Assembly (NCBI GenBank): GCA_002748575.1 | Contig: PDSR01000081.1 | Coordinates: 1 to 40,066, forward strand | Source of the DNA: Gammaproteobacteria bacterium | GTDB lineage: Bacteria; Pseudomonadota; Gammaproteobacteria; Pseudomonadales; Ketobacteraceae | Length of the DNA: 40,066 bases | Direction: 5' to 3' | In this document: in pieces, positions 3,033 to 26,313 of the stretch | Numbering within the stretch: the stretch's first letter is position 1 | How the letters are laid out: the number at the start of each line of letters is the position of its first letter | Program-made: the position numbers and the translations under genes | Notes under the pieces: generated by a model | What the model was told of the DNA's origin: nothing | Seen by the model: the letters and a program-made list of their open reading frames with translations, nothing else | Databases searched by the model: none

Positions 3033-5066
3033 CTATAATAGCGACTGGAAGAAAAACTCACCAGCCTCGTGGCCAGCATAGCGTGCCGGGGCATAATCGG
3101 GTACCTGGTTATGATCCAGTTCGCGTGCCCGGATGCGCACCTTGCCTAACACTTCGCGGTAAATAGAGTGGCCTTCAACAATGCCGCTTGCTTTATCCAG
3201 AGTATCAATAAAGGCCCGTGCGAATACTGAGTGGCCACTACCGCCGCCATCCAGCACTGGAGCAACACCGCCCGATGTGAGTACCGTTCTTGCTTTGGCT
3301 TTCGACATGATTTTTACCCATTCAGCATGATCTTCCGGCGACATATCAATGTTGACACGCGGTACTGATGCCATCGACAGGGTGCCTGCATAGCAGGAGT
3401 CTGCCACCACCAAAACGTGTTTTGCCGGCATGGCATTTAAAATGTCTGATATGGAAACATTGGAGATCCAGTTGGCACTGTTGCCGGGTTCGGCATCTAC
3501 AGGCAGCCAGTAGCCACGCTTATTAATGTCGTCCAGTTCGCCGTGGCCTGCGTAGTAAATCAGCAGGTTGTCTTGCGGGGTCAGCACTTCCCGCAGGTTA
3601 TTTAAGGCCGATAAAAGATCATAGCGGGTTGCGTTGGTTAGCAGTGTTGTATTGAAACCATACTTTTCGCGCAGAATTTTTTCGGTTTCTTTGGCATCGT
3701 TAATGGGTGTTTCCAGATCCTGATAGTAAGCATAACGGTTGTTGCCAATAATCAACGCATGGTATTTGCCCAGATCAATACCCTTATCAAGTTTAAGCGC
3801 AGCAGCTTTAGAAACTTTGATGCTTTCATCCAGCTGCTTTCTGTCGGCCACCAGGCTGAAGTCGAATTCAACCTGGCGTCCGTTTTCATCAATCGCTTTC
3901 AGCTTAACGTTGTTTCTTACAGATTTGACCGGAACCGTTACCCAGAACAGGCTGTAATCATCCACCGGTTCCTGTTTACCGTTAACGAAAAAGGCTTTTA
4001 GGCCGGAAGGCGCTTTAATTTTGCCCACCACCTCTTTTTCAGTAATGCCGCTACGCAGGCGCACGGTTGGCAGCCCGCGCATTAATGACATGGGTGGATC
4101 GATAATTTCAATGGAAGGCGCATCAACATTCATGGCAACCAGTTGTGCCTGATTACCAACATCTGCTTCAGCGGTAGCGATTTTCCGGCTCATCTGGTCA
4201 GCGGTTTGATTAAGCTGAGCCAGTTGAGTTTTACGTTCTGATACTTCAGCCGTTGCTTTTGCCAGCTCTGCCTGCAACTGATCAATCAGTGCCTTGCTTT
4301 GCTCATGTATTGCTTTGGATTGCTGTGCAATCAGCGCTTTTTCTTTTTCATGTTTTGCTTTTTCTGCTGCCAGTAACTGGCCTTTTTTCAGCTTTAACTG
4401 TTGCTGAGTGCCGGCCAGCTGGGTTTGCAGGTCTTCCAGCTGCTGATTTTTAAAGGCCACTTCTTCGCGCAGTGCATCCAGCTCCTGTTGTGCCTGCGAT
4501 GTGATTTCCACGGTGGATGCATATTGCAGATCATCCGTTTGTACGCCCGATGCCCTGCGGTACCAGTTCAGTGCAACGGCTTTATCTTTTGGCACTCCCA
4601 GGCCTTTTTCATACAGATTCCCCAGATTAATCTGGGCGCGGGAAAAACTTTGTTCTGCTGCCTTGCGATACCAGTTGGCTGCGGCTTTGTAGTCCGGCTT
4701 AATGCCCAGACCCTTCTCGAATATTTCGCCCACATAAGTTTGCGCTTCGGCATCGCCGGCCTCGGCAATGGGCAACCATATTTTTAATGCGGTGGCATAA
4801 TCGGCGCGGTCGAAGGCAACATATTCACCGCCGCGAATTTCGCAATCGGTAGCGGTGGTTTTAATGGGTCGCCTGGCGGTTTGATACATCGACATTGCTC
4901 CCAGGCGGCGAACCTGGCCCGGCAGCAGGCAATCAATAATTAACAGGTCGTCGGCATTGCGTGCCTCCATGGGCGGTTCGGTTGTTGGGGCGGTGGAACA
5001 ACCAGCCAACAGAGTAATGATAAAAGCGCTTAAAGTGCTCAGAGTTTTATAGGCATAGGGCTTCAT
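3033..5066 (-). CDS. Outer-membrane-type lipoprotein with Sel1 repeats, coiled coil and C-terminal caspase-like (peptidase C14) domain
   Basis: Lipobox LLAGC|ST; Sel1 repeats (YVGEIFEKGLGIKPDYKAAANWYRKAAE..., NLGNLYEKGLGVPKDKAVALNWYRRA); catalytic His in YYAGHGE and Cys in ADSCYAG. Confidence 0.9.
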   Translation of the reverse strand: MKPYAYKTLSTLSAFIITLLAGCSTAPTTEPPMEARNADDLLIIDCLLPGQVRRLGAMSMYQTARRPIKTTATDCEIRGGEYVAFDRADYATALKIWLPIAEAGDAEAQTYVGEIFEKGLGIKPDYKAAANWYRKAAEQSFSRAQINLGNLYEKGLGVPKDKAVALNWYRRASGVQTDDLQYASTVEITSQAQQELDALREEVAFKNQQLEDLQTQLAGTQQQLKLKKGQLLAAEKAKHEKEKALIAQQSKAIHEQSKALIDQLQAELAKATAEVSERKTQLAQLNQTADQMSRKIATAEADVGNQAQLVAMNVDAPSIEIIDPPMSLMRGLPTVRLRSGITEKEVVGKIKAPSGLKAFFVNGKQEPVDDYSLFWVTVPVKSVRNNVKLKAIDENGRQVEFDFSLVADRKQLDESIKVSKAAALKLDKGIDLGKYHALIIGNNRYAYYQDLETPINDAKETEKILREKYGFNTTLLTNATRYDLLSALNNLREVLTPQDNLLIYYAGHGELDDINKRGYWLPVDAEPGNSANWISNVSISDILNAMPAKHVLVVADSCYAGTLSMASVPRVNIDMSPEDHAEWVKIMSKAKARTVLTSGGVAPVLDGGGSGHSVFARAFIDTLDKASGIVEGHSIYREVLGKVRIRARELDHNQVPDYAPARYAGHEAGEFFFQSLL

Positions 5067-5157: not shown

Positions 5158-6042
5158 TTATTCAGACGTTACGAATTGCTGATAATCGAGCAGCTTTTTC
5201 AATACCTGTGGCCAGAAAGCTTCCCAGCCGTTGATATGATCCACTTTCGGCAAGCGGTGAAATTCTGCCCGTTGTTGTTTATTGGCATAAGCTTCAATCC
5301 AGTCGGGGTTAATTACTGTATCGTTTGCACCAGCATAGTGGATTTGGATGATTTTGCCTGAAAGATTAGGGCGATCTGATGGATTCAGTGATAATTTCAG
5401 TGGTTGATACTGATGGTTAACGGCCCAGGCGAAAGTATCGAGGTTTCCCGCCAGAGTAACTACCATAGATGTTTTGCTCATCTTTTCAGCCAGCAGAGTT
5501 GCAATAGTGCCGCCGCCGCTATGGCCGATTAACACCAGGTGATCGTAATCGTTGCTAAAATGCTGTAAAGCATGTGCCATACTGTTGATAACCTTTTCAC
5601 TGTAGCGTTGCCTTGTCCATACATTCGGTGAGCAGTTGGTATCTTCAGCGTTAAAGTAGCAGGGGCGTCCGAGATAAACTGCCGGGCGGGTATCCATATG
5701 CATCAACTTAAGCATTAGCGGATTGTCCGGCGTTGGATTGGCAGATACTTTGCCATTAACGAAAGCTTTGCCGTCGCCTTCAATATAAACATGCAGAAAT
5801 TTTCCAGGTTGGTGGCTGGTTTGCAAAGCAAAAGCCGCCGCGTTCACATAGCTGGCATGAAGGTATGGTTCGCCCTGAATAAATTGCAGGTTCGCCTGAA
5901 ATTGTTTTGCATAATGTTGTTCTACAGGTGTTGTTTGGCAGCCGCTTAATGCAAGCAACGCAAAAACACAGCATATTTTTGCAATGCCCTGAAGGCAACG
6001 CCGGTTAATTGTGGATGATAAATAATCAGTTTGAATGTTCAT
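5158..6042 (-). CDS. Lipoprotein alpha/beta-fold hydrolase
   Basis: Lipobox ALSGC|Q; nucleophile elbow GHSGGG; plausible downstream Asp (GANDTVI) and His (KVDHING). Confidence 0.75.
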   Translation of the reverse strand: MNIQTDYLSSTINRRCLQGIAKICCVFALLALSGCQTTPVEQHYAKQFQANLQFIQGEPYLHASYVNAAAFALQTSHQPGKFLHVYIEGDGKAFVNGKVSANPTPDNPLMLKLMHMDTRPAVYLGRPCYFNAEDTNCSPNVWTRQRYSEKVINSMAHALQHFSNDYDHLVLIGHSGGGTIATLLAEKMSKTSMVVTLAGNLDTFAWAVNHQYQPLKLSLNPSDRPNLSGKIIQIHYAGANDTVINPDWIEAYANKQQRAEFHRLPKVDHINGWEAFWPQVLKKLLDYQQFVTSE

Positions 6043-6123: not shown

Positions 6124-6250
6124 GAAAGGTAAGATTGTTGTTATTAATCAGTGAGTAAATACTGAAATTAAAACTAAAATAGAGAATTAATTAAAAGTCT
6201 GCAGTCAGGCAGGCCTTAAGTAAATTGATTGACGTTGATTGAGAAAAATT

Positions 6251-7825: not shown

Positions 7826-8344
7826 ATGTTTACAGCATTGCGAAAGCGAACGTTTTTCAGCATCACCATGATTGCAAGCCTGTTGATGGTTATATTCACT
7901 ACAGGTTGTTCAACCACCGCAAGAGTGCTCAATTTGCAAACTGAAGTCAGCATGAACTTTCAGGTGTGGCCAAATATCAATCCCGATGAAGCAGGTCGTT
8001 CTTCGCCATTAGTTATTAGAGTGTTTGAGCTGAAAGATGCGCGTCAGTTTCAAACCGAAGATTTTATTGGTTTGTTTCAGGAAAGCCGTGAACGGCTGGG
8101 GGGTGATCTGGTGGCGGAACGCCGTTTAAGAGAGCTAACCCCGGGGATTGATCATCAGGAAGTGTTGCTGCTCGATCCAACAGTTCGTTACATCGGGCTG
8201 TTAGCTGAGTTTGTACAGTATGAAAATGCTCAGGCACGATTGGTTTTTCCGGTGGAACCTCATCGCACTACTGAAAAAATTATTTGGGTCAATAAAACCA
8301 CCATTCAGGTGGTGGACGAAGAAAGACCGAAAAACGCTGATTAA
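7826..8344 (+). CDS. tssJ: T6SS outer membrane lipoprotein TssJ
   Basis: Lipobox TTGC; TssJ-like core (LVIRVFELKDARQFQTEDFIGLF...); synteny with tssK. Confidence 0.92.
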   Translation: MFTALRKRTFFSITMIASLLMVIFTTGCSTTARVLNLQTEVSMNFQVWPNINPDEAGRSSPLVIRVFELKDARQFQTEDFIGLFQESRERLGGDLVAERRLRELTPGIDHQEVLLLDPTVRYIGLLAEFVQYENAQARLVFPVEPHRTTEKIIWVNKTTIQVVDEERPKNAD

Positions 8345-10675: not shown

Positions 10676-13600
10676 ATGAATCGGGTCGTGTCGTTTTTAA
10701 CCGATCGACGTTTTTTATCCATTTTAGGATTAATCGCGCTGGCCATTTTGATTTGGTTTGGTGGCCCTTACGTTCATTTTGGTGAAAACAATGTTGCGCC
10801 TTTAGGCAGTGTAGTGGCCCGCCTGGTTGCCATTATTATTTTACTGGCTATCTGGGGATTAAATAACTTTCGTGTTCAATATCAGAATCGTCAGCGAACC
10901 ACCAGATTGTTGCAGGAGGTTCAGGGTCTGGAAGACGATGCCCCGGTAGAATCCACCGATCATTCGCAGGAAGAACTGCAAACCCTGCAAAAACGGTTTG
11001 CCGATGCGATGTCGATTCTGCGTCGCACTCATTTTCAACAGGGTCGTAATAAAGATGCCAAAGCCCTTTACCAGTTGCCCTGGTATATCATTATCGGCCC
11101 GCCGGGTTCCGGTAAAACCACTGCATTGGTGAATTCCGGCTTGCAGTTTCCATTGGCCGATCAAATGGGCATGGGTTCTGTTCAGGGGGTGGGTGGTACC
11201 CGTAACTGTGATTGGTGGTTTACCAACGAAGCGGTGTTACTCGATACCGCTGGCCGTTACACCACTCAGGATTCCCACAAAGTGGCCGACAGTAAAGCCT
11301 GGACAGGTTTTCTGGATCTATTGCTGAAACACCGCAAACGTCGCCCCATTAACGGCGCCATTATCGCCATCAGCATTCAGGACCTGTTAACCCAAACTGC
11401 TGATGAGCGCACCTATCATGCTCGCACCATTCGCGCCCGTATTGATGAACTGGTAGAAAAGCTTGGCATCAATTTTCCCATTTATGTCATGTTTACCAAA
11501 TGTGATTTATTAGCGGGCTTTTCTGAATTTTTTGATGAGCTGACCCTGGAACAGCGTGAACAGGTATGGGGAATGACATTCCCGTTACCCGATGATGCCC
11601 ACAAAGGTTATGCCTTTGATGAGCAGCTGTTTGAACAGAAATACGCCGACCTGCTAAACCGCTTGCATATGCGGGTGCTGGATCAGGTACAGCGCGAGCA
11701 TGATCCGAAAACCCGCTCCAGTGCGGTGAATTTCCCCAACCAGTTTGAATCTATCAAAGGCGCAATGTCTAATTTCTTAAAGCAGACATTTGCCCCCAAC
11801 CGGTTTCAGGAGCAACCGTTCCTGAGAGGCATTTATTTTTCCAGCGGCACTCAGCAGGGCACACCTATCGATCGCATGATGTCCTCGGTGGCATCCGGTT
11901 TTGGCTTGCCGCCATCAGCGGTGCAGACGCCGCCGGGGCAGGGTAAAAGCTTTTTTATTCATCGCCTGTTTAAAAATATTGTATTTCCCGAAGCCGAACT
12001 GGTGGGTGCTAACCGTCAATACGAACTGATGCTGAAATGGGCCAGGTGGGGTGCTTATGCAGCCTTTGCTGTTATTTTTATCGTTAGTGTGGTGGTGTGG
12101 GTGGCAGCATACTCACGCAATCAAGCCTATCTGGATCAAGTTGCCCAGCATTATCAGCGTTATCAGGAACTGGTAACTCTCATTCAGCAGCACCAGGGCG
12201 ATTTACGCAATATATTGCCGGCGCTACAGGAACTGCGTCGTGCCAGTGAAGTGTTCGATCAGGAGTCACTGCCCTGGTTAGCAGGCCTGGGGCTGCACGA
12301 TGCCCGGGTGGAAAATGAAGCAAAAGCCGCATACCAGCGCGAGCTGAGCCGCCTGTTACTGCCGCGTATCACCAACCGTGTGGCCAGCGCCCTGCAAAAA
12401 TCCAGTTATAAAGACCCTAACCTGCACAACACTTTGTTGGTGTACCTGATGTTTGGCGATCCGGCAAAAATCAATAACAGTGCTGTTAAAGACTGGATGC
12501 TGGCAGATTGGGAAAACCTCTATCGGGGCCAGACCGAAGTGCAGGCAACCTTGCAGCAGCATTTGGATGCGCTGTTAGCTGCAGGTTTTGAACCGGTGAA
12601 GCTTAATCAGCGGGCACTGGCAAAAAGCCGTTCCGAGTTGAAGCGTGTGCCGGTAGCGAAACGTATTTACAACCGCATTAAAAACGAACCCCAGTACCGG
12701 GCAAAAGTGGATCTGCGAGGCCTGCTGGGAGACAGTACCAGCACAGTGTTTGCCAACAAGCATAATCGCCACCTGTTTTCCATGCCGTTCTTTTTCACTA
12801 AGCAGGGCTATCAATCCGTTGATTTATCGGAAGATTCCGACACCATTCGCAGCATGTTTGCTGATCGCTGGATTATGGGTGAAGAAGACGAATCCGTTTA
12901 TAACGATAATGAAATTGGCAAAATCAGTCAGCAGATTAAGAATTTATACCTTGCCGAATACACAGATCGCTGGCGGCAGTTTCTTAATGGCATGAAAGTG
13001 AATAACTTTGGCAACCTGGAACAAAGCCGCAGAATTTTAGCGCTGCTTGCAGATCCGGTTTATTCGCCGTTGTTGGCGGTATTAAAAGTTACTGCCGAAA
13101 ATACCCGGTTAACCCCGCAGTTACCCGCGGCCGCTGCCAGTAAAACGGGTGCGCTCAGTCGTTTTCTTGGCGGCGATGAAGCCAGCAAAGGTGCCGGCCT
13201 GTTCAAGGGTAATCGTGTCGATAAGCACTTCAGGGAATTAAATTTGCTTAGCCGTGAAACCGATGGCAGCTCCCGTATAGCCAGGTCTTTAAGCAACATG
13301 CGTAACGTACAGGATTACGTGAATAATATTATTCTGGCGCCGGATTCCACCGAAGCAGCCTTTAATGCAGCCAAAGCAAGGTTGCTGGCCAGTGGTGATG
13401 ATGTGATTAAAGCACTGCGTATTGAAGCCAGCAGCTTGCCTGATCCAGTGCGCCGCTGGTATTTAAGTGTTGCCGACCAAACCTGGCGGGCAGTGCTGGG
13501 TAATGCCAAAGCCTATTTGAATGCGCAATGGAAAAACCAGGTATACCGCACCTTTGTATCGGATCTGCAAGGGCGTTTTCCTGTTTATAAGAATGCCGTG

Positions 13601-14203
13601 GATGAACTGGCGATATTTGATTTTGCCGAATATTTTAAGCCCGAGGGCGTGCACGATACCTTTATGCAAACCTACGTAACGCCTTTTGTTGATATTGAAA
13701 GCTGGCGTATCAAAACCCTTAATGGTCGCGGTCTTTATTTGTCGCCGGAAGCCATCGACAGTATGAAAAAGGCCGAGCAGATCAAAGATATGCTCTTTAA
13801 AGTGAACCCATCCTCGCCGGGCTTTCACTTTAAAATGAAACCTTATCGAATGGATGCCAGTGTGCGCCGCTTTCAATTAAGTTACGGCGGCCAGCGAATG
13901 TTATATACTCACGGCCCGAAAATCTCTCAGGAAGTTTCCTGGCCAGGTGATGGTAGCACCAGCGTTAGAATGTCGTTTGAAGATTTGAATGATTCCATCA
14001 AACGAGTCAACTACGATGGCCCCTGGGCATTTTTCCGCTTGTTGCAGGATTCTCCGGTTAGTGCCACCCGCAGGTCGAATGTGTACCGGATTACATTTTC
14101 AACTCTGGGCCGCAAATCCGTGTGGGAAGTGACGGCTAAAAGCTCCAATAATCCCTTTAAAACCAACGCGATTGCACAATACCGATGCCCAGAAACGCTG
14201 TAG
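10676..14203 (+). CDS. tssM: T6SS membrane protein TssM (IcmF)
   Basis: 1175 aa; Walker A IIGPPGSGKTTAL; N-terminal TMs plus a third TM near 12040-12110; synteny. Confidence 0.97.
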   Translation: MNRVVSFLTDRRFLSILGLIALAILIWFGGPYVHFGENNVAPLGSVVARLVAIIILLAIWGLNNFRVQYQNRQRTTRLLQEVQGLEDDAPVESTDHSQEELQTLQKRFADAMSILRRTHFQQGRNKDAKALYQLPWYIIIGPPGSGKTTALVNSGLQFPLADQMGMGSVQGVGGTRNCDWWFTNEAVLLDTAGRYTTQDSHKVADSKAWTGFLDLLLKHRKRRPINGAIIAISIQDLLTQTADERTYHARTIRARIDELVEKLGINFPIYVMFTKCDLLAGFSEFFDELTLEQREQVWGMTFPLPDDAHKGYAFDEQLFEQKYADLLNRLHMRVLDQVQREHDPKTRSSAVNFPNQFESIKGAMSNFLKQTFAPNRFQEQPFLRGIYFSSGTQQGTPIDRMMSSVASGFGLPPSAVQTPPGQGKSFFIHRLFKNIVFPEAELVGANRQYELMLKWARWGAYAAFAVIFIVSVVVWVAAYSRNQAYLDQVAQHYQRYQELVTLIQQHQGDLRNILPALQELRRASEVFDQESLPWLAGLGLHDARVENEAKAAYQRELSRLLLPRITNRVASALQKSSYKDPNLHNTLLVYLMFGDPAKINNSAVKDWMLADWENLYRGQTEVQATLQQHLDALLAAGFEPVKLNQRALAKSRSELKRVPVAKRIYNRIKNEPQYRAKVDLRGLLGDSTSTVFANKHNRHLFSMPFFFTKQGYQSVDLSEDSDTIRSMFADRWIMGEEDESVYNDNEIGKISQQIKNLYLAEYTDRWRQFLNGMKVNNFGNLEQSRRILALLADPVYSPLLAVLKVTAENTRLTPQLPAAAASKTGALSRFLGGDEASKGAGLFKGNRVDKHFRELNLLSRETDGSSRIARSLSNMRNVQDYVNNIILAPDSTEAAFNAAKARLLASGDDVIKALRIEASSLPDPVRRWYLSVADQTWRAVLGNAKAYLNAQWKNQVYRTFVSDLQGRFPVYKNAVDELAIFDFAEYFKPEGVHDTFMQTYVTPFVDIESWRIKTLNGRGLYLSPEAIDSMKKAEQIKDMLFKVNPSSPGFHFKMKPYRMDASVRRFQLSYGGQRMLYTHGPKISQEVSWPGDGSTSVRMSFEDLNDSIKRVNYDGPWAFFRLLQDSPVSATRRSNVYRITFSTLGRKSVWEVTAKSSNNPFKTNAIAQYRCPETL

Positions 14204-14985
14204 ATCAACAACAGGCCCCTTTAGGGCTTTACGGAAAACTGCCGGCCCACGGAGACTTTGTTACCCGCAGGCTTTCGCAGGAATTTATCCAGGGCTGGGA
14301 CGACTGGCTGCAACGAGCCATTGCCAGCTCTCAGGAACAGTTGGGTAATCAATGGCTGGATATTTATTTAACCAGCCCGTTGTGGCGTTTCGTGCTATCG
14401 CCAGGGATTGTTGATAACCAATGCTGGGCTGGCGTGTTGATGCCCAGCATCGACAGTGTCGGGCGCTATTTTCCGCTGACCCTGGCCCGTCCGGTTTTAC
14501 AGCTGGCGAGCCCCGCAGAAATGATCGCACAGGGTGAAGCCTGGTTCGCAGGTTTGGAAGAGATTGCGCTCAGTGGTTTGCAGGAAGGGGTGAATGCCGA
14601 CGCTCTGGATCAAGCGCTTACTGCCTATGATGATGTGCAGTTGTCTGGCACCTCGGCAGTGGGGGTGGCGCTGGAATTTTCCCGCCCGGTTATGGTGCCT
14701 TTGGAGCAGAATGCACCCAATCCGCTGCTCAGTTTTCCTTTTTTGCTTGATAGTTTCCTGCAACAGCGATTACCGAGCTATAGTTTATGGTGGAGCACTG
14801 GATCAGAGCGCGTTGCGCCCAACTTTTCAGTGTCTGGTCATTTGCCGCCGCCGCAGAGCTTTGCTGCCATGTTGGATGGCCAATGGCAAAATTGGAACTG
14901 GAGCACGCCGTTTTCGGTGATGCCTTACGATAATGGCGAGCTGCTGATGCCCGCTGAAACCGAAAGCCCGAAGGAAGGTGTTTGA
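14185..14985 (+). CDS. tagF: T6SS-associated protein TagF
   Basis: N-terminus GLYGKLPAHGDFVTRRLSQEFIQGWDDWLQ is typical TagF; overlaps the tssM end. Confidence 0.93.
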   Translation: MPRNAVDQQQAPLGLYGKLPAHGDFVTRRLSQEFIQGWDDWLQRAIASSQEQLGNQWLDIYLTSPLWRFVLSPGIVDNQCWAGVLMPSIDSVGRYFPLTLARPVLQLASPAEMIAQGEAWFAGLEEIALSGLQEGVNADALDQALTAYDDVQLSGTSAVGVALEFSRPVMVPLEQNAPNPLLSFPFLLDSFLQQRLPSYSLWWSTGSERVAPNFSVSGHLPPPQSFAAMLDGQWQNWNWSTPFSVMPYDNGELLMPAETESPKEGV

Positions 14986-16045: not shown

Positions 16046-16083
16046 AAAAAAGCCCGCAGAGACTGATCTCTGCGGGCTTTTTA
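16046..16083. terminator. Bidirectional rho-independent terminator
   Basis: aaaaaagcccgcagaga-ctga-tctctgcgggcttttt between convergent genes. Confidence 0.92.
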
Positions 16084-16101: not shown

Positions 16102-16584
16102 TTACATCTTTTTGCCTTTTTCGACACTGTAACCAAAGCGGCCCTGACCACCTTTCACATTGTCTTTGCCAGACTCAGAATAAGCCGTTTCGATGCCTGT
16201 AAAGCTCAAAGAAAGGGTTTCACTCGTGTCGGTATTTTCGCCACTGGATACGGAATAGCTGCTGATTAAGCAATCGTGCAAGGTATAAGTCATATACTCT
16301 TCTTCTGCATCCCCTCCGGTACGGGTAAGATGGATAATGACTTTTTTGCCTTTAGTGCCAATCACTGACTCTTGAACCAAAAGTGGTGTAGATTTATCCA
16401 TTATTTTGGATACACAGACTTCACCTACATTTGGGCTGGACGCCTCGCGGTTTGACGTGCGGCCTGTAATCATTGAAATGCCGCGACCAACGTTCCAAGA
16501 AAAGTTTTGAAGCTCAATCTGACCCTCGTAGCCTTCCATGGTTACGTTGCCTTCGATACCTTCGTATTCCATGTATACAGACAT
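16102..16584 (-). CDS. hcp: T6SS tube protein Hcp
   Basis: 160 aa; MSVYMEYEGIEGNVTMEGYEGQIELQNFSWNVGRG; start taken at the internal ATG, not the ORF start at 16704. Confidence 0.92.
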   Translation of the reverse strand: MSVYMEYEGIEGNVTMEGYEGQIELQNFSWNVGRGISMITGRTSNREASSPNVGEVCVSKIMDKSTPLLVQESVIGTKGKKVIIHLTRTGGDAEEEYMTYTLHDCLISSYSVSSGENTDTSETLSLSFTGIETAYSESGKDNVKGGQGRFGYSVEKGKKM

Positions 16585-16790
16585 TGTGTTTTCCTCTTTG
16601 TGCGGTTGTGTTGTTTTTTTGAACATTGCGTGTTGCTCAATGTATAAGGAAATTATTACAGAGCATTGAAAAATGACAAAGGAGTTTTTTAGTAAATATG
16701 TCACATTCAGGAGGGCATTAATACAACAGCTAGAATTGTATGAAAAACTCTATAATATGTGTTGTTAGTGAATTAGTAGGAGATACCAGT

Positions 16791-19352
16791 ATGGGTGGCA
16801 TTGGTGAGCAACATCATATAGCGATTGAAACATCAGCCAGCGAATATGATATAGATGCAGAGTTATTGCTGGAATCGTTTACCGGTAAAGAAGCGATATC
16901 GGAGCTTTATAACTTTCAGTTAAAAGTGCTTTGTACAAAAGTTGATATTGATCCCATTAAAATCGTGGGAAAAAAAATGTCGGTTTCCATTGCATATTCA
17001 GGTGATGCCTCCAAAAAGCGATTTTTCAATGGTTATGTGAAACGCATAAAAGCCGGTGAAACTTTTACTACCTTGGCACACTCAATTAAAGGCAGTTGCT
17101 TACGGCGCTACGAGATAGAATTAGTACCCTGGTTGTGGTTTCTGACGCAAAACTGCAACAATCGGGTTTTTCAAGATAAAACAGTGATCGAAATTATCGA
17201 AAAAATACTGGAAGATCATCAAGGCATTGCAGAAAGTAATTGGGATTTGGTATCGGGAATAGTCGGTGCGCATCCCAAGCGGAATATCTGTGTTCAGCAT
17301 CAGGAATCGGATTTTGATTTCATATCGCGCCTGCTGGAAGATGAGGGTATCTTTTTTTATTTCAGGCACGCAGATGATGGTTCGAGTGATCATACATGGG
17401 TGCTGTGTGATGATGTTTCTGCCTATAAATTCAACCCTGCAAAACCCACGGGTGATGACGATTGTAACATCGTTGAGCATCGTCAGGGTTCGGGTATTGG
17501 CGAACAGATTTCCCAATGGCAGCATCAGTATGAACTGCAAACGGGCGGTGTGCTGCTGCATGATTATGATTATAATCTGGCAGCTGCCGAACTTGCAGAA
17601 CCGTCTGCACCATCTGCCACCAAGCTTGGCAGCAAATTTCCGGCCGTTGCTGAGAAAACTGAAACCTACGAATATCCGGGTAAATACAGCTGCCTGCAGG
17701 AAGGCGAAAGCGCCGCCAGCCATAAAAGCAATCTGGCCCAATGGCGCGCCGAAGAAATTGAAGCTGATTACGATGTGGTTTCTGCAAAAAGCAACAGCCG
17801 CAACATACATCCTTGTGGCAAATTCACCACTGCCATTGAAGACTGCGATTGGGAATCCAATGGTGATTATGAAGAAGGCTACGTGGTGCGCTCTGTGACC
17901 CATTATGCTGTTGATACCAGTTATCATACCGGTGATGGCAATACTGTTGGCATGAAAGCGGCAACCGCCATTAACCAGATTGCCACAGCGGCCATGACCA
18001 GCGATGCATCTCAGCAATCCCTGATTGATGTGCTGAAACACCTGGCCGATGCACTGGCTGACCCTGATACCGATGCAGACAAAAGCAACTCTACCGCCCA
18101 ATACCACAATCGCTTCGACGCCATGCCGGCCAAAGTTGTGTTTCGTCCGCCGCGTAAAACGCCCAAGCCAAAAGTGTTCGGCCTGCAAACAGCGGTGGTT
18201 ACCGGGGCCGGCGATATTGATACCGATTCCCAGGGCCGTGTTCAAGTGAGGTTTCATTGGGAGCGGGAGGATCGCAAAGGTTCAACCTGGGTTCGGGTAT
18301 CGCAAATGTGGGCAGGAAAAGATTGGGGAGGGCAGCATATTCCCCATGTTGGCCAGGAAGTGCTGGTGGATTTTATACAGGGTGACCCGGATTTACCGGT
18401 AATTATCGGGAGGGTTTACAATAATCAGTACGCGCAGCCGTTAAACCTGCCAGCAGATAAAACCAAAAGTATTATTCGCGATTATGGTGCCAATGAAATG
18501 ATTTGGGAAGGTAAAGAGAAGGTGCAGCATATGTGGTTACATCAGGCCTGCGATAACGAGCTCTGGATGGAAGGGAAAAAAGGCAAAGAAGAAATTAGTC
18601 TAAAGCAAAAATGTAACAACGAATTATCTATGTGTGCCACCGAACCGTCAATCAGTCTGGAGCAGGCGTGTGGTAATGAGCTGTATATGACAGGAAAGGG
18701 GCCGGCTAAAATTCAATTAACTCAAGAGTGTGGTAATGAACTTTTGATGGAAGAAGACGGCGCCAAGATCACTTTGCAAAATCCGGATGGCGATAATTCT
18801 ATTGTGATGGATCAGGCCAAAGGGACTATTACCATGTACACAAAATCAAAAAATGCCAAATTGATTCTGGGTGGTGATAAAGGCTATAGCATGAAGCATG
18901 ATGGTGATTGGTTTAATCATACCTTTGGTAAAAAAGTAAACATCGTTGGCGGTGTTGAAGAAGCGGTATTCTACGGTGGAAAAAACTCGAATAACATTGG
19001 GGTGGATCTAAGTGAGAATTTGTCATTCGCTGAATCAAAAAATATTGGAGATCGTTTTCGCGAGTCGAAAAGGGCTATGACCTATTCAGCGAAAAAGAGC
19101 TTGAAATTACAGGGTGGTGCCAATGCAGATTGTTTCGTGGCAATGGATGCCCAGAAAATTGAGAATAAGGCAGGAAGCACCAAGTTTGAAATAAATAACG
19201 ACGGCGATGTGGAACTGAATACCAAGAAAAAGTTTAAAATTAAGGCTAAAACTCAAACTCACATTACAAGCAATGAAATTATATTAAAAGCTAAAACAAT
19301 CGATCTAACTAAAGCGCTGGTGAAACATAAAAATATAAAAATACTTTCTTAA
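16791..19352 (+). CDS. vgrG: T6SS spike protein VgrG/TssI with extended C-terminal repeat region
   Basis: VgrG fold (LLESFTGKEAISELYNFQLKVL, HQESDFDFISRLLEDEGIFFYF) and gp5 OB motif (RVQVRFHWERED...WVRVSQMWAGKDWGGQHIPHVGQEVLVDF). SD aggaga precedes ATG 16791. Confidence 0.95.
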   Translation: MGGIGEQHHIAIETSASEYDIDAELLLESFTGKEAISELYNFQLKVLCTKVDIDPIKIVGKKMSVSIAYSGDASKKRFFNGYVKRIKAGETFTTLAHSIKGSCLRRYEIELVPWLWFLTQNCNNRVFQDKTVIEIIEKILEDHQGIAESNWDLVSGIVGAHPKRNICVQHQESDFDFISRLLEDEGIFFYFRHADDGSSDHTWVLCDDVSAYKFNPAKPTGDDDCNIVEHRQGSGIGEQISQWQHQYELQTGGVLLHDYDYNLAAAELAEPSAPSATKLGSKFPAVAEKTETYEYPGKYSCLQEGESAASHKSNLAQWRAEEIEADYDVVSAKSNSRNIHPCGKFTTAIEDCDWESNGDYEEGYVVRSVTHYAVDTSYHTGDGNTVGMKAATAINQIATAAMTSDASQQSLIDVLKHLADALADPDTDADKSNSTAQYHNRFDAMPAKVVFRPPRKTPKPKVFGLQTAVVTGAGDIDTDSQGRVQVRFHWEREDRKGSTWVRVSQMWAGKDWGGQHIPHVGQEVLVDFIQGDPDLPVIIGRVYNNQYAQPLNLPADKTKSIIRDYGANEMIWEGKEKVQHMWLHQACDNELWMEGKKGKEEISLKQKCNNELSMCATEPSISLEQACGNELYMTGKGPAKIQLTQECGNELLMEEDGAKITLQNPDGDNSIVMDQAKGTITMYTKSKNAKLILGGDKGYSMKHDGDWFNHTFGKKVNIVGGVEEAVFYGGKNSNNIGVDLSENLSFAESKNIGDRFRESKRAMTYSAKKSLKLQGGANADCFVAMDAQKIENKAGSTKFEINNDGDVELNTKKKFKIKAKTQTHITSNEIILKAKTIDLTKALVKHKNIKILS

Positions 19353-19364
19353 AGGGTGTGAGTT

Positions 19365-19967
19365 ATGGAGAAGTTGCCAGAAATAATAATAACATTAATT
19401 ATTGTTGCAGCAGTTGCTTACTATCTTAAATTGGATCTGGCCGATGTTACCAGCCGTGCAGGTGAAACCGCAGCTAAAAACACCAAGGCGTTGGCAAATC
19501 AATTGGGATATACGATTACTTCGCCGCGATCTGCTTCGCGTCAGGATGCAATGACAAAGCAATACAAAGGCTACCAGATTACCATTGATGGTGATCATAG
19601 TCAGATAGAAATTGATTTTCAGCGCTCCCTGGGTTTGCGGCTGTTCAGTTCAGAAAATCAATTTGGAGAAGTTCCAAAACTCCATGTTTTCAATTTCAGC
19701 AATTCGAAATTAGATAAATTTTTTGTCTATAAAGTTGCGAATAAAAAAATGCTGAATCAGCAAAAAGCATTGCAAGAGGCGTTGTTACCCTTAATTGATC
19801 ATTTTGATAACCGCCGCTTGAAATACCTGTATATCAAGGATGAATACCTGCGTATTGGTTTTGCTTATCGTAATTATTTACCGATTGATTTTATTCGCCA
19901 GTCGTTGCCACCTGTGGAGCAGGCTGCTGAAGCGCTGAAAGCAATACAAAATAACAGGCAGAGGTAG
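19365..19967 (+). CDS. Membrane-anchored hypothetical protein
   Basis: 200 aa; N-terminal TM LPEIIITLIIVAAVAYYLKL; 12-bp gap after vgrG. Confidence 0.65.
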   Translation: MEKLPEIIITLIIVAAVAYYLKLDLADVTSRAGETAAKNTKALANQLGYTITSPRSASRQDAMTKQYKGYQITIDGDHSQIEIDFQRSLGLRLFSSENQFGEVPKLHVFNFSNSKLDKFFVYKVANKKMLNQQKALQEALLPLIDHFDNRRLKYLYIKDEYLRIGFAYRNYLPIDFIRQSLPPVEQAAEALKAIQNNRQR

Positions 19968-19976
19968 CCGGCAGTC

Positions 19977-22160
19977 ATGGAAATTATTAACGATACGCCT
20001 TTTACCTTCGGGTTATTACCAGGTCGTATTTATTTTCCCCATCACTCCTTAACCTTGATTGTTAAAGGCACGTTTGATTTACAGCATTTAACTGCGCCAC
20101 AGCTGGCCGAAGAGCAAACCTTCCCCGAAGGAGATGTTTTTTATGAAGGCGATGACGAGGGCAAAGGCAGCGTGTTTTATGAATCGGATTTTGCCTATGC
20201 AAAAACGGCAACCGATTGTTTTCTGGTGGGGCATTGTCAGGGCGCAGAAGCAGCCAGGGTGCGGCGTGTTGATTTTAAAATAGGTAATTTCCTGAAATCG
20301 GTTGCTGTATTTGGTGATCGCTCATGGCTTGGTGGTTATACCATAAGCCAGCCTGAATATTTCGATACTCTTGCCTTACGATACGAAAACGCTCTTGGAG
20401 GCCCCGGCTATACCGATAACCCGGTTGGCAAAGGTATTGCCAAGGGCTCTGTGTTACCTAATATTGAATACCCTGATCAGTTGATGCAATCCCCACAGTC
20501 GCGCCCGCCGATGGCTTGCACGGGCGCTGTGAATCGCAACTGGACGCCACGCCGCCTTAAAATTGGCACCTATACTCATAACTATGTTAAAGAACGCTGG
20601 CCCTGGTTTGCTGAGGATTTTGATTGGAGCTATTTTAACAGTGCGCCTGCTGACCAGCAGGTAAAGCCTTGTTTAACAGGCGATGAACCCTTGGTGGTTA
20701 CTTCCATGCATCCTCAGCATGACGTGTTTGAAACGCACTTGCCGGGGCTGCGCGCCAGAATTTTTGTATCCACCGCCAACGAACCCACTTTACAGCAGTT
20801 CACCGAGGTAAAATCGCAACTGGATACCGTGTGGGTGAATATGGATGACCAAACCCTGCGCCTGGTATGGCGGGGCTGGTTGCAGGTCTCCAGTGATGAA
20901 TACCCTGAAATAAAACACTGTTTTGTTTTTGCCGAACCCACCACCATTGTCACTCCCGATCATGTTGTCTTTGAGCGCTTTCAGGAGTGCTGGCTTGAAT
21001 TGCAGTATGATGAAGAGCCCGAAGAACCCGAAGAGCCGGCCGCAGATAAGTTAACCAGCGAAGAAATTAACGCTCAGCTGGAAAAAGAAATTGCCGAAGC
21101 ACGCCAGTCCATGCGGGCACATTTAATCAGTTTGGGCGTCGACCCTAAAGAGCTTGATGATGCTATGGAAAAAGCGATTGCCGAAGAAGAAAAGCGCGAA
21201 GCTGAAAAGCCCAAACCCAAAGTGTGGACACGGGAATTGTTTAAGCTGGCATTGGAAAAACGGCGTAACTTTTCCCAGGAAGATTTAACCGCAGTGGATT
21301 TTTCAGGGCTGAATCTTCAAGGCGTAGATTTTAAGCAGGCGGATTTAACCCAGGCCAGTTTTTATCGCTGTAAGCTGACCAACTGTGATTTCAGCCAAGC
21401 CATACTGGAGAAAGCCAGTTTTGTTGAATCCTATAGTATTGAATCATTGTTTGTTGGTGCTGATTTATTCCAGGCAGATTTCAGTCATGCCCGCCTGAAT
21501 TCCACAAACTTAAGTGATTGCCTGGCAGATGAAGCCTGCTTTGATAACAGCATGGCGCAGAATCTGGTTATGCAGCAAGCCAGTGCCAATAAGGCATCTT
21601 TTAGGCATATGACAGCTCCCAGCGCTGATTTTACCGCGACGGACTTTTCTTATAGTGATTTATCTGCCGTTGATTGGCATCAAAGCCAGTTGTCTCAGGC
21701 TTCTATCGAGGGGTGTGTGGCAAAGGCGGTTAATTTTATGCTGGCAGATTTAACCGAATTAAGGGCCTCAGAAGGCCTGGATGCTGAAGGCAGCAACTTT
21801 TGCCAGGTAGTTGCCCCTGCTTCTATCTGGGAGCAGGCGAATTTAAAAAACTGTAATTTTACCTATGCAAAAATGCAGGGAGCCACCCTGAATAAAGCGC
21901 AGCTTCAAGGGGCAGATGTTTCGGCGGCTGATTTCAAACTGGGAAAATTTGCCGGCGCTGATCTTGCCACCACCAAAGCGGTTATGATTAATCTGTTCGA
22001 AGGCAGCTTCGAAAAAGCCAATTTAACCCGGGCTGATCTTCGCGGATCAAATCTTTACGGGGTGGAATTTTTAGAAGCAAACATTGAGCAGACTTTATTT
22101 GAGGCTGCAAATTTACATGGCACCAAGCTGAAGGCAAAAATGCGCGAGGGGGAACGCTAA
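19977..22160 (+). CDS. DUF2169 domain fused to C-terminal pentapeptide repeats
   Basis: N-terminal DUF2169-like region (~300 aa), acidic/coiled linker, then A(D/N)LxxAxF-type repeats. Confidence 0.85.
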   Translation: MEIINDTPFTFGLLPGRIYFPHHSLTLIVKGTFDLQHLTAPQLAEEQTFPEGDVFYEGDDEGKGSVFYESDFAYAKTATDCFLVGHCQGAEAARVRRVDFKIGNFLKSVAVFGDRSWLGGYTISQPEYFDTLALRYENALGGPGYTDNPVGKGIAKGSVLPNIEYPDQLMQSPQSRPPMACTGAVNRNWTPRRLKIGTYTHNYVKERWPWFAEDFDWSYFNSAPADQQVKPCLTGDEPLVVTSMHPQHDVFETHLPGLRARIFVSTANEPTLQQFTEVKSQLDTVWVNMDDQTLRLVWRGWLQVSSDEYPEIKHCFVFAEPTTIVTPDHVVFERFQECWLELQYDEEPEEPEEPAADKLTSEEINAQLEKEIAEARQSMRAHLISLGVDPKELDDAMEKAIAEEEKREAEKPKPKVWTRELFKLALEKRRNFSQEDLTAVDFSGLNLQGVDFKQADLTQASFYRCKLTNCDFSQAILEKASFVESYSIESLFVGADLFQADFSHARLNSTNLSDCLADEACFDNSMAQNLVMQQASANKASFRHMTAPSADFTATDFSYSDLSAVDWHQSQLSQASIEGCVAKAVNFMLADLTELRASEGLDAEGSNFCQVVAPASIWEQANLKNCNFTYAKMQGATLNKAQLQGADVSAADFKLGKFAGADLATTKAVMINLFEGSFEKANLTRADLRGSNLYGVEFLEANIEQTLFEAANLHGTKLKAKMREGER

Positions 22161-23993
22161 GTGGTCGATTTCGATAAACTCGCTCGTTTTACTGATCCGC
22201 ATGAAGTTATCAAGGCGCTGCATTCTGGAGAAATTCTTGAGTTTGTGAGTTTGTCGGCAGCTAATCTCGCCGGCGACAGCCTTGAAAACAAAATTGTTAA
22301 ATCCACCCGTTGGCACGAATGCAACCTGGATAATGTTACCTTTAATGGCTTACAGGCAACCGCCAATATTTTTAGTGAAACCGCCCTTAAGAACACGCAG
22401 TTTTTTAACGCACAGCTTACCGATTGCCTGTTTTATCTGGTAGAGGCTGTCGCTGCTGATTTTTCCTGCGCCAAGCTTAAAGACACAGCCTATCGAGGTG
22501 ATGTTAAATGGTTAACCTCGGCAGATGCCTGCGATGTATTGTTGGATGAGCTGGAATTAGAAGCCAGCACGCTGGAACTGCTTCATAAAAATAATTTTGT
22601 CGGTTACAAAGAGCAGCGCAGCAACCTGGAAAAAAGCGTATTCCGTCAGGCAGAGGTGGTACTTGCCACTTATAAAAGTGTGGCAGCGCAGCAGGCGGAT
22701 TTCACCCAGGCACAGATCAAATCGAGCCAGTTTGATGATGTGCTGCTGAACAATGGCAACTTTACAGAGGCCGTTATAACAGAAACAGTTTTTGTTGATT
22801 GTGAATTGCAGGCGGCCAATTTTAAAGGTGCCACATTGCAAGAGGTGACATTTAAAAACTGCCGGTTGGATCAGGCATGTTTCAATCATGCTGTATTTAA
22901 CAATGTGAAATTTATTGGCTGTTGTATTAAAGACTGCCGCTTGTTACCGCCTATGTTATCGGGCACAGAATTCGAGCACTGCGATTTAATTGATGGCGAC
23001 TTTAAAGAAGCCGATTTAACTCAGGCAATATTTGTACATTGCTGTTTGCGCGGCGCTGAGTTTACCCAGGCAAAACTGGCGGGTTGCTTCTTTGTTGATT
23101 GCGAATTCAGTCATGTAAATTTTCACGGCATGGCCCTTGAGGATATGGATTTTTCTGGCTCTGCAATGGCCCATGCGGTTTTTACCCGAGCCAGATTAAC
23201 CAATGTGAACTTTCAGCAAGCCGACCTTCAAGGGGCATGGTTCGATGGTTCCCGCAACGAAGACTGTAGCTTTGCGCAAGCAAAATTACAGGGAGCCAGC
23301 TTTCAAAAAAGCGTGCTGGTTGCCTGTGATATGAGCGACGCCCATGTGGAATCCATTGATTTAGGCGAAGCCGCTTTACAGCAGACTGATATGGACAGCG
23401 TGGACTTCCGTTCGGTTCGCCTGGAAAAAACCCGCTTCAAAACCTGCGGACTGACCCATTGTGAATTTTCCGGGTCGAATTTGCAGTATTGTTATTTCGA
23501 CGACAGCGATCTTAGTGGATCAAATCTGGCGCATAGCCTGTTGGATTTTGGTTCTTTTAATCAGGTGGATTTCAGCGGCTGTAATATGGCCGGTGTCAGC
23601 ATGTCTAATGCTCATGCCAGGGTGGCGGACTTTTCCGAAGCCAACATGCAATCCTGTCAGCTTGGCGGCACTGATTTAACAATGAGTCGTTTTGTCGGGG
23701 CCGATCTTGGCGGCTCGGCCATGGCGCAGGCCAGGGTTAACCGGGCGGAGTTTAATGAAGCACGACTTGTTAATGCCGATATGAGAGGTGTGCAGGGTGA
23801 GTACGCAATGATGGCCGGTGCAGATTTAACCCAGGCCGATATATCCCAGGCAGATTTTCGCTTTGCTGTATTTCATAATGTGACGATGAAAGACACCCGT
23901 CACCGGCAAACCAATTTTAAAGGGGTTCTGAAAACCGACAAAATCAGGTTGGCCGCTGAACAGTGGCAACCCCCTGAACCGAGGCAGGCATAA
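22161..23993 (+). CDS. Pentapeptide repeat protein
   Basis: 610 aa, GTG start immediately after the previous stop; repeats such as ADLTQAIFVHCCLRGAEFTQAKL throughout. Confidence 0.9.
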   Translation: MVDFDKLARFTDPHEVIKALHSGEILEFVSLSAANLAGDSLENKIVKSTRWHECNLDNVTFNGLQATANIFSETALKNTQFFNAQLTDCLFYLVEAVAADFSCAKLKDTAYRGDVKWLTSADACDVLLDELELEASTLELLHKNNFVGYKEQRSNLEKSVFRQAEVVLATYKSVAAQQADFTQAQIKSSQFDDVLLNNGNFTEAVITETVFVDCELQAANFKGATLQEVTFKNCRLDQACFNHAVFNNVKFIGCCIKDCRLLPPMLSGTEFEHCDLIDGDFKEADLTQAIFVHCCLRGAEFTQAKLAGCFFVDCEFSHVNFHGMALEDMDFSGSAMAHAVFTRARLTNVNFQQADLQGAWFDGSRNEDCSFAQAKLQGASFQKSVLVACDMSDAHVESIDLGEAALQQTDMDSVDFRSVRLEKTRFKTCGLTHCEFSGSNLQYCYFDDSDLSGSNLAHSLLDFGSFNQVDFSGCNMAGVSMSNAHARVADFSEANMQSCQLGGTDLTMSRFVGADLGGSAMAQARVNRAEFNEARLVNADMRGVQGEYAMMAGADLTQADISQADFRFAVFHNVTMKDTRHRQTNFKGVLKTDKIRLAAEQWQPPEPRQA

Positions 23994-24047
23994 GCCAGTC
24001 AATATATAAACCAGTCACTGTAAGCTGGCGAATAAGGGATCAGAATA

Positions 24048-24749
24048 ATGACAACGAATAAATCAGCAGTAATTCAACAGCCAGCTAACGCAGTCGGCCC
24101 CGTAGATACTTCTGTAGTGGCAACATCTCAGGGTGCCCATGCGCGGTTATCTGCTGCTTCCCCCGATACCTTGCAGGTGTTCGATGCCAGCCAGCAACTG
24201 ATTTTTGAATATGATGCCGCCGCCGGTGTAACCCGAATGCAGGTGCCGGAAGGTGATTTAGAACTGGCGACACACAAAGGCAGTATTCGTTTAAAGGCAG
24301 CAGATGAAGTGGCCATTGCGGGTAAGGATGTTAACGTGCATGCCACAGAATCGTTGGCCTTGAAAGTGATTGACATCAGTAAGCAGTTGCTCCGGCCTAT
24401 GGGTAGTACCTTAAGCCTGCTTCCCCACAAAGCGATGCTGGCGGCGCAATCGCTGGAGCTTGGTGCTGATGATGCCAAAGTTTCTGCTACCCGTATGGCC
24501 TACCGGGGGCAGGAATTATCGGCAGTCGTTGAGCGTGCCAGCAGCCTGTTTGAAAAACTGGACACTAAAGCCAAGCGCATTCTGCAAACCAGTGATCATT
24601 TAATCACTAAAGTGAAAGATGCCGCTCAGTTACGAGCCGGTAGAATCAATCAGCAGGTGGAAGGCACCATTCAAATTAAAAGTGAAAAGGCCGTTCACAA
24701 AACCAAAAAAGACTTTAAAGTGCAAGCGGAACGTATTCATTTAGGTTAA
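24048..24749 (+). CDS. DUF3540-like protein, VgrG-needle-like beta repeats
   Basis: Pattern KGSIRLKAADEVAIAGKDVNVHATESLALK and terminal IQIKSEKAVHKTKKDFKVQAERIHLG; position between the pentapeptide gene and the DUF4150 gene. Confidence 0.75.
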   Translation: MTTNKSAVIQQPANAVGPVDTSVVATSQGAHARLSAASPDTLQVFDASQQLIFEYDAAAGVTRMQVPEGDLELATHKGSIRLKAADEVAIAGKDVNVHATESLALKVIDISKQLLRPMGSTLSLLPHKAMLAAQSLELGADDAKVSATRMAYRGQELSAVVERASSLFEKLDTKAKRILQTSDHLITKVKDAAQLRAGRINQQVEGTIQIKSEKAVHKTKKDFKVQAERIHLG

Positions 24750-24759
24750 GGAAAAAGTT

Positions 24760-25176
24760 ATGCCTGCTATATTCCCTGCGTCAACCAAACAAAGTGGCCA
24801 GTGTTTTGCGTTTCCCGATGTTTGTAAAACGCCAGCACCCCCGGCACCTCCTGTGCCTGTGCCTTACCCCAATATGGGTATGGTGATGCAGGCCAGTAAA
24901 ACGTCGAAAAAAGTAAAGTTCTGTGGCAAGGATGCGGTAACTACCGATTCCGAGATTCCCCGTTCTATGGGGGATGAAGCAGGCGTTGCCGGTGGTATGG
25001 TATCGGGTAAGAACATGGATAAAATTACCTTTAAAAAAGGCAGTGCGAAAGTTAAAGTTGAAGGTAAGCCTGTTGTCCATTTAACATCTATGACGGCCCA
25101 AAATGGATCAAACGCAAATATGCCTTCCGGTTTACAGGTAGCGCCCAGTCAAGTAAAAGTTATTGTTAGTCCATAA
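24760..25176 (+). CDS. DUF4150 PAAR-like protein, no C-terminal extension
   Basis: 138 aa; PAAR-like features (PFPDVCKTPAPPAPPVPVPYPNMG-type N-terminus, KVKVEGKPVVHLTSMTAQNGSNANMPSG). Confidence 0.88.
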   Translation: MPAIFPASTKQSGQCFAFPDVCKTPAPPAPPVPVPYPNMGMVMQASKTSKKVKFCGKDAVTTDSEIPRSMGDEAGVAGGMVSGKNMDKITFKKGSAKVKVEGKPVVHLTSMTAQNGSNANMPSGLQVAPSQVKVIVSP

Positions 25177-25247: not shown

Positions 25248-25700
25248 ATGTTGGTATTGCTTAAAAAGGTTTTATTTGTTGTCTCTCTGATGGCTTGTAC
25301 TTCGTTATATGCTGAGCAGGCATCCAAAGACAGTGTGAAAGAATTGATGAGGCTAACCGGTGCGGGCAATATGTCGGTGCAGATGATGAATCAAATGCTA
25401 CCGGCTTTAAAAAGCATGGCCCCGGATCAACCTGAAAAGTTCTGGGATGACTTTATGGCCGAAGTAGATCCCAATGAGCTGGAAAATCTGGTAATACCTG
25501 TATATCAGAAATATTTATCTGAAAATGAAATTAAAAGCCTGATTGAATTTTATCAGTCACCCGTTGGCCGAAAAATTATCAGCGTTCAGCCCCATATCAT
25601 GCAGGAATCCATGATGATTGGCCAAAACTGGGGCAGGGGGATCGCGCAAAAGGTGTTGCATAAACTTAACTCCCAGGCACCTTCTGCGGGCAGTCATTAG
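25248..25700 (+). CDS. DUF2059 exported protein
   Basis: Signal peptide MLVLLKKVLFVVSLMACTSLYAEQ; DUF2059-like helices (IPVYQKYLSENEIKSLIEFYQSPVGRKI). Confidence 0.85.
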   Translation: MLVLLKKVLFVVSLMACTSLYAEQASKDSVKELMRLTGAGNMSVQMMNQMLPALKSMAPDQPEKFWDDFMAEVDPNELENLVIPVYQKYLSENEIKSLIEFYQSPVGRKIISVQPHIMQESMMIGQNWGRGIAQKVLHKLNSQAPSAGSH

Positions 25701-25713
25701 TGACAACAAGCGC

Positions 25714-26313
25714 ATGTGTCCGGGTACGTTGATGCCCGCTGAATTTCCGTCGCCGCTTGTAGTTACCTTGCCAGACTGGCTGTCGCAGGTGGTAGCACCG
25801 GGCGATGTATTGTCTACTGATCAGGAGCGCATGGCGCTGGCCATTGAACTGAGTCGCCAGCAGTTAAAACATAATACCGGCGGGCCTTTTGGTGCCATTG
25901 TGTGTCAACTGGATACGGGTAAAGTGGTGGGTGTGGGGGTTAATCGTGTCGTGCCACAACACGCCAGTATCGCCCATGCCGAAGTGCTTGCCTGGTCGGG
26001 CGCACAAGCTTTTTTCAATACCTTCAACCTTGGCGACCCCGCTATTGCGCCACTGGGTTTATATTCCAGCGCACAGCCGTGCATTGCCTGCTGGGGCGGA
26101 TTGTTCTGGACGGGTATCACCAAACTGGTATGCGGGGCCACCAAAGGTGATGTTGAAAAACTGGCAGGCTTCAACGAAGGCCCGGTGCCCGCTGATTGGG
26201 ATCAGATTTTGCGCCGTGCCGGGGTGGAAGTGCTAACCCAGGTTAACCGCAGCGCAGCCTGTGAAGTGCTCAAGGCATATGGCGAACGGGGTGTTATTTA
26301 TAATCCGGGGTAA
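25714..26313 (+). CDS. Nucleoside deaminase (CMP/dCMP deaminase superfamily)
   Basis: TGGPFGAIV, HAEV, PCIACWGG zinc motifs. Start uncertain (25714 or 25732); the ORF start at 25618 overlaps the upstream gene. Confidence 0.87.
   Translation: MCPGTLMPAEFPSPLVVTLPDWLSQVVAPGDVLSTDQERMALAIELSRQQLKHNTGGPFGAIVCQLDTGKVVGVGVNRVVPQHASIAHAEVLAWSGAQAFFNTFNLGDPAIAPLGLYSSAQPCIACWGGLFWTGITKLVCGATKGDVEKLAGFNEGPVPADWDQILRRAGVEVLTQVNRSAACEVLKAYGERGVIYNPG

Follow-up and report, generated by a model that had tools for sequence, protein, structure and literature searches.

A probable Class III-type Tvp gene set beside vgrG in a Ketobacteraceae type VI secretion cluster, with a TvpC that lacks the N-terminal OB domain

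The stretch of DNA analysed here (the window; 40,066 nucleotides, contig PDSR01000081.1 of assembly GCA_002748575.1) belongs to a gammaproteobacterium of the Ketobacteraceae represented by a 1.59-Mb, 55%-complete metagenome-assembled genome (MAG), and holds most of one type VI secretion system (T6SS) cluster, from a Ser/Thr kinase gene through the gene of a bare DUF4150 spike tip (Table 1). The subject is a set of four genes at 19977–25176, tvpAB, tvpB, tvpC and paar1, together with the vgrG upstream and the gene of a 200-amino-acid (aa) protein, G200, in the slot between vgrG and tvpAB. An earlier note on this DNA had described the four open reading frames (ORFs) as a VgrG-linked module; their coordinates, lengths and family names were all confirmed by ORF check and Pfam, and so was the linkage, the vgrG at 16740 lying inside the T6SS cluster. 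The genes of the set lie on one strand with intergenic gaps of 0–54 bp, and no convincing forward terminator was found between vgrG and the tip gene, so that the set probably forms, as judged from the DNA, a single operon with vgrG; sites resembling promoters or terminators are at least as frequent in shuffled sequence as they are here. The unit begins at vgrG, so the G200 gene counts as a member.

Table 1. Genes of the T6SS cluster and of the Tvp set in the window
Feature	Position	Strand	Family match or context
Ser/Thr kinase	at 395		T6SS cluster
FHA protein	at 6239		T6SS cluster
TssJ	at 7826		T6SS cluster
TssK	at 8406		T6SS cluster
TssL	at 9722		T6SS cluster
TssM	at 10676		T6SS cluster
TagF	at 14185		T6SS cluster
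PppA-like phosphatase	at 14978		T6SS cluster
Hcp (tube protein), divergent neighbour, same T6SS cluster	16102..16614	-	T6SS_HCP E 2.2e-35
VgrG (TssI), 870 aa: gp27-like domain, OB domain, ~315-residue C-terminal beta-prism	16740..19352	+	Phage_GPD E 7.4e-73, Phage_base_V E 4.4e-16, TIGR03361
G200, 200 aa: N-terminal transmembrane helix and alpha/beta body, in the vgrG-tvpAB slot	19365..19967	+	no Pfam/NCBIfam family
TvpAB, 727 aa: DUF2169 chaperone domain, ~139-aa helical linker, pentapeptide beta-helix	19977..22160	+	DUF2169 E 5.9e-75 at 23-299
TvpB, 610 aa, GTG start: stand-alone pentapeptide-repeat protein, long type	22161..23993	+	Pentapeptide_4 E 7.2e-64
TvpC, 233 aa: DUF3540 VgrG-tip mimic without N-terminal OB domain	24048..24749	+	DUF3540 E 1.6e-19, profile 94-199 of 199
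Paar1, 138 aa: bare DUF4150/PIPY-domain spike tip with PVPY motif	24760..25176	+	Tox-PAAR-like/DUF4150 E 5.7e-37

DUF2169 proteins have been described as chaperones of DUF4150 'PIPY' tips, and the gene order of the window is that of synteny type C (Sachar et al. 2025, PMC11883445); the Class III Tvp complex, tvpAB-tvpB-tvpC-paar1, defined by a DUF3540 TvpC and a pentapeptide TvpB, has been dissected in Serratia marcescens (Monlezun et al. 2026, PMC13373197). In the window, TvpAB has the Class III fusion of a DUF2169 domain, which matches the solved DUF2169 structure 8vth (E 8e-20), to pentapeptide repeats, here from about residue 436 (E 5.9e-33); TvpB is the separate pentapeptide-repeat protein; the DUF3540 match of TvpC scores 71.1 bits against a cut-off of 27.9; and Paar1, as the earlier note had it, is a bare DUF4150/Tox-PAAR-like tip with a PIPY-type motif and no effector domain. 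Class III tips are bare according to PMC13373197, and those of nearly all Class III loci examined here are so (125–149 aa), the ORF call of locus L074 being longer. The window thus has the gene content, order, homology and motifs of Class III, plus the loss of a domain, and the module is very probably a Tvp accessory complex of Class III type, which belongs to a known kind of spike-loading chaperone set and serves one T6SS spike. The proposal that it is an undercharacterised system does not stand, as the genes are explained by the two papers of 2025–2026.

The Class III locus of S. marcescens Db10 (VgrG1-Vai1-2246-TvpAB-TvpB-TvpC-Paar1; PMC13373197) has the same gene content and order, and shares with the window the DUF2169-pentapeptide fusion, the separate pentapeptide protein, the DUF3540 protein, the bare DUF4150 tip and a slot behind vgrG that encodes a membrane protein; its VgrG has a long prism, to which that of the window may correspond. 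The window differs in its TvpC without OB domain, its TvpB of 610 aa, its short TvpAB linker and its slot gene, which is not of the Vai1 family (no DUF3192; the two are set apart by family profile). The gene content of the synteny type C loci is identical (vgrG, multidomain DUF2169-pentapeptide, pentapeptide, DUF3540 and DUF4150 genes, with the PIPY motif), although DUF3540 was left uncharacterised there (PMC11883445). Burkholderia TagAB-5/TagB-5/TagC-5 and B. glumae bglu_2g07420/07410 (PMC8747328) likewise include DUF2169-pentapeptide and pentapeptide accessory proteins, but serve the eukaryote-targeting T6SS-5, with a VgrG5 that carries a C-terminal effector domain and a TvpB-type protein of 356 aa. 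Class II Tvp (Pseudomonas aeruginosa PA0096–PA0099, DUF6484) likewise combines a DUF2169 chaperone, a VgrG-mimic TvpC and a DUF4150 domain; it differs in the lack of pentapeptides, the DUF6484 TvpC, the fusion of the PAAR-like domain to an effector and the presence of TvpD.

In S. marcescens, TvpAB and TvpB enclose the PAAR-like tip in a chaperone cap that sits on TvpC, a mimic of VgrG, until VgrG1 takes the place of TvpC; the TvpC and VgrG1 complexes are mutually exclusive and occupy the same place, the pentapeptides lie around and not along the axis, TssK contacts TvpC in two-hybrid assays, and all four proteins are essential for VgrG1-dependent firing (Hcp secretion and killing), TvpAB and TvpB being undetected as secreted proteins (PMC13373197). 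By analogy, these assembly steps may also hold in the source organism. The DUF2169 domain of TvpAB would bind and shield the hydrophobic bare tip, and the pentapeptide helix of TvpAB, together with the separate TvpB, would close the cap round it; TvpC, as a short trimeric VgrG-like beta-prism, would be the template for the first formation of the cap; VgrG (16740) would then displace TvpC, and the capped spike would go into the baseplate; finally, the cap would depart before firing, and VgrG and tip would be ejected.

TvpC is matched by the C-terminal part of the DUF3540 profile only (Table 1). In other loci of the window's kind, TvpC has an N-terminal domain with the motif 'GDxVLV...YVIGxL' that aligns to the OB part of DUF3540; this domain is missing from TvpC of the window and of loci L056 and L057 (alignment A3), and the homologue in genome G468, matched from residue 10, is likewise short. 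The open frame of the window gene comprises 237 aa, with only 4 codons in frame upstream of the ATG, and no OB barrel is present in the predicted structure, a single chain of the presumed trimer modelled at moderate confidence (predicted local distance difference test, pLDDT, 69.5), in which residues 1–19 are of low confidence and strands start from 31. The model has weak structural matches to VgrG (9jg9), the R2 pyocin spike and the T5 tail tip. The earlier description of the protein as a headless VgrG-like needle was right. The C-terminus (IHLG tip) is the most conserved part, with I230, H231 and G233 invariant over 19 sequences, which fits the function of TvpC because that end would carry the tip. 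The window TvpC is a new anatomical variant, in which the OB domain has been lost in the window's own family.

DUF3540 was searched in sampled genomes and found in 9 of 274 from the class and 14 of 196 from the order; this search, a scan of genome contigs and extended regions together provided more than 40 loci. The survey of gene order suggested in the earlier note thereby gave a positive answer, since the order vgrG-tvpAB-tvpB-tvpC-paar, nearly invariant, recurs in dozens of loci and therefore is not due to chance. The same order, vgrG-(slot)-DUF2169/pentapeptide-pentapeptide-DUF3540-DUF4150, is found in Enterobacter cloacae plasmid pIMI-6, in Pantoea piersonii and in MAGs of several phyla, and the nearest relative of the locus among the genomes searched is a Pseudomonadales MAG (JAKSAW010000552). 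The pIMI-6 locus (L100, 25058–44026) lies on a conjugative IncFII plasmid with tssF, tssG, tssH, tssI and a complete Class III Tvp set, and in L041 (2599–8618) a tandem vgrG pair (985 and 1014 aa) stands immediately upstream of tvpAB. Two kinds of locus can be distinguished. The first, whose lineage includes the enterobacterial plasmid loci, has a TvpB of 350–368 aa and a TvpC of 174–225 aa; the window's kind has a TvpB of 603–826 aa (median 676) and a TvpC of 228–318 aa, and spans Gammaproteobacteria, Acidobacteriota, Desulfobacterota, Myxococcota, Planctomycetota, Gemmatimonadota and Verrucomicrobiota. Since sequences from other phyla have been reported to fit the published classes (PMC13373197), a distinct anatomy, and not a discovery, is claimed for the long-TvpB kind. 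The beta-prism of VgrG extends 315 residues past its OB domain; VgrG length was dropped as a marker of Tvp loci, as other VgrGs from the same genomes are often long as well and overlap in length with the Tvp-linked ones.

Several points weigh against this assignment. The Class III TvpC is described as an OB fold plus beta-prism (PMC13373197), and the window TvpC does not have the OB part, although this is a structural description and not a stated defining feature of the class. TvpB exceeds that of the Serratia model in length by a factor of about 1.7, and the TvpAB linker, of about 139 aa, has roughly half the length usual among relatives; because of these two differences and the missing OB domain, the geometry of the complex must differ from that in Serratia. 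In the DUF2169 tree, the short-TvpB lineage is set apart from the window's lineage with support of 100/99, and the single Class I/II outgroup, on a long branch, is placed with the window's lineage; this tree, with its long branches, does not show Class III as a whole to be cleanly monophyletic, and a common origin of all 'Class III' is therefore not proved. In addition, the organism is known from a MAG of little more than half completeness.

Two other functions had been suggested for the four proteins, and both are largely unsupported. In the first, which is very improbable, they would form an alternative, longer spike with needle, DUF3540 protein, pentapeptides and tip end to end; DUF3540 is a VgrG-like prism and the TvpC model has the spike-like matches given above, but TvpC and VgrG1 share one place in S. 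marcescens, where the pentapeptides wrap round the axis (PMC13373197), and TvpC is without the gp27 domain required for the Hcp tube. The second, that the pentapeptide beta-helix proteins are injected cargo such as DNA mimics on gyrase, is scarcely credible: the similarity to Qnr/MfpA/HetL models is generic, with all matches far under the curated cut-offs (Qnr at most 102 bits against 240), the pentapeptide protein stands always beside the tip chaperone and is never swapped for another effector type in the loci examined, and in S. marcescens TvpAB and TvpB are cap chaperones required for assembly (PMC13373197). The similarity reflects the common repeat only, and membership in the gyrase-protecting Qnr/MfpA proteins was rejected.

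The four genes had been said to carry no evident toxin domain, and indeed no toxin family passes its Pfam cut-off in the set; in VgrG (16740), the domain profile search recognised no effector or toxin domain. The only toxin name to come up was Tox-REase-5, in TvpB (E 0.0099); with 16.9 bits this match stays below its cut-off of 25, falls within the pentapeptide repeats and is probably spurious, and a cryptic toxin was rejected. The deaminase gene just downstream (25618–26313) was rejected as a toxin; it resembles TadA and is missing from the corresponding position in L056, a locus of the same genus, so that its product is probably an ordinary enzyme. An amphipathic peptide at the end of VgrG, as proposed for Serratia, was likewise discarded, the helical moment of the last 26 residues being below the shuffled mean. 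The set would need no separate toxin, and its payload is probably borne by Hcp or VgrG.

The slot between vgrG and tvpAB is variable. DUF3192, the Vai1 family, has no match in G200, its homologues or the part of the genome scanned, and G200 was therefore rejected as a Vai1 homologue. The AlphaFold model of G200 (pLDDT 85) has as its best Foldseek match TtfA (6t84, E 5.5e-4), an N-terminally membrane-anchored accessory of a transporter, with a weak match to the type III secretion chaperone Spa15; weak matches to reverse transcriptase were disregarded. Profile searches identified homologues at the same slot in L056–L059, L065 and L067, including two delta-type loci; L062 has two in tandem after paar, one without a predicted transmembrane (TM) segment, and in genome G295, with no DUF3540 match and one non-adjacent VgrG, the copies are partly duplicated and away from any vgrG. 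These G295 copies, one of them 5'-truncated, lie at contig ends (L092:1-360, L093:1-190, L094:1-112), where the assembly breaks inside the gene. Elsewhere the slot is occupied by unrelated membrane proteins, of 131 and 71 aa in pIMI-6 and of 109 aa in L071. In L035 (10370–13843, minus strand) it is duplicated: two multi-TM paralogues of 312 and 284 aa, 25% identical, lie between vgrG and tvpA, and the 40 residues between them copy the N-terminus of TvpA at 75% identity. A TM segment is predicted in every slot family, compared with 21% of background ORFs, and in many loci the slot is empty. Compared with a same-genus MAG, G200 is the most divergent gene of the window (33% against 55–90%); it is clearly the fastest in two of four pairs and about as fast as TvpB in the other two, and was thus rejected as the fastest-evolving gene in general.

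In Serratia, the product of vai1, the gene after vgrG1, confers immunity and has a periplasmic body anchored by an N-terminal TM helix; its cognate toxin was not found apart from VgrG1 itself (PMC13373197). G200 occupies the same position and also has an N-terminal TM segment, and it is plausible, if short of probable, that it confers immunity to a toxic activity of the adjacent VgrG, working like Vai1 without belonging to its family. The unrelated membrane proteins that fill the slot elsewhere, the tandem and displaced copies in L062 and G295 and the divergence from the same-genus MAG are consistent with this, and the duplication in L035 with its remnant of the next gene is what toxin-immunity recombination leaves, so that an immunity slot is favoured. 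Against it stand the many loci without a slot gene, the two pairs in which G200 is not clearly faster than TvpB, the absence of DUF3192, the L062 copy without TM segment, the VgrG with neither toxin domain nor amphipathic terminal helix, and flank charges that weakly favour a cytoplasmic body, unlike the periplasmic Vai1.

Those charges, the TtfA match and the co-occurrence of G200 with short linkers and prisms make a serious rival of an assembly role, which is possible, though doubtful: as a membrane-anchored factor, G200 would replace the missing helical part of TvpAB or dock the capped spike at the inner membrane. In loci with G200, TvpAB linkers are of about 125–139 aa where measurable, against 247–332 for the majority of other relatives in the lineage, and VgrG prisms are mostly shorter; nevertheless, short linkers also occur without G200 (L038, L071, L073/74, L077), the co-variation rests on few lineages, and the orphan copies in G295 are without a Tvp set. 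Returning to immunity, a more general proposal may be made tentatively for the Class III loci, in which the VgrG shaft or tip would itself be the toxin, paired with an interchangeable gene for a membrane-bound immunity protein at a fixed position behind vgrG. Recombination would duplicate and shuffle this slot, as happens at other polymorphic toxin loci, and G200 would then be the immunity protein of the window's lineage.

Elsewhere in the cluster, a Sel1-repeat protein with a C-terminal caspase (Peptidase_C14) domain is encoded at 3033–5066 (minus strand), beside a putative lipoprotein with weak alpha/beta-hydrolase matches (5158–6042, minus strand), which may be either a candidate effector or simply an unrelated enzyme. 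A hairpin with a 16-bp stem and a T run, strongly resembling an intrinsic terminator, lies at 16047–16082, between a 93-aa ORF and the end of hcp.

The absence of the OB domain from this TvpC suggests that the template step may require no more than prism and tip, and the variable membrane-protein slot provides a comparative handle on where the VgrG1-linked toxic activity sits and on what Vai1 recognises.

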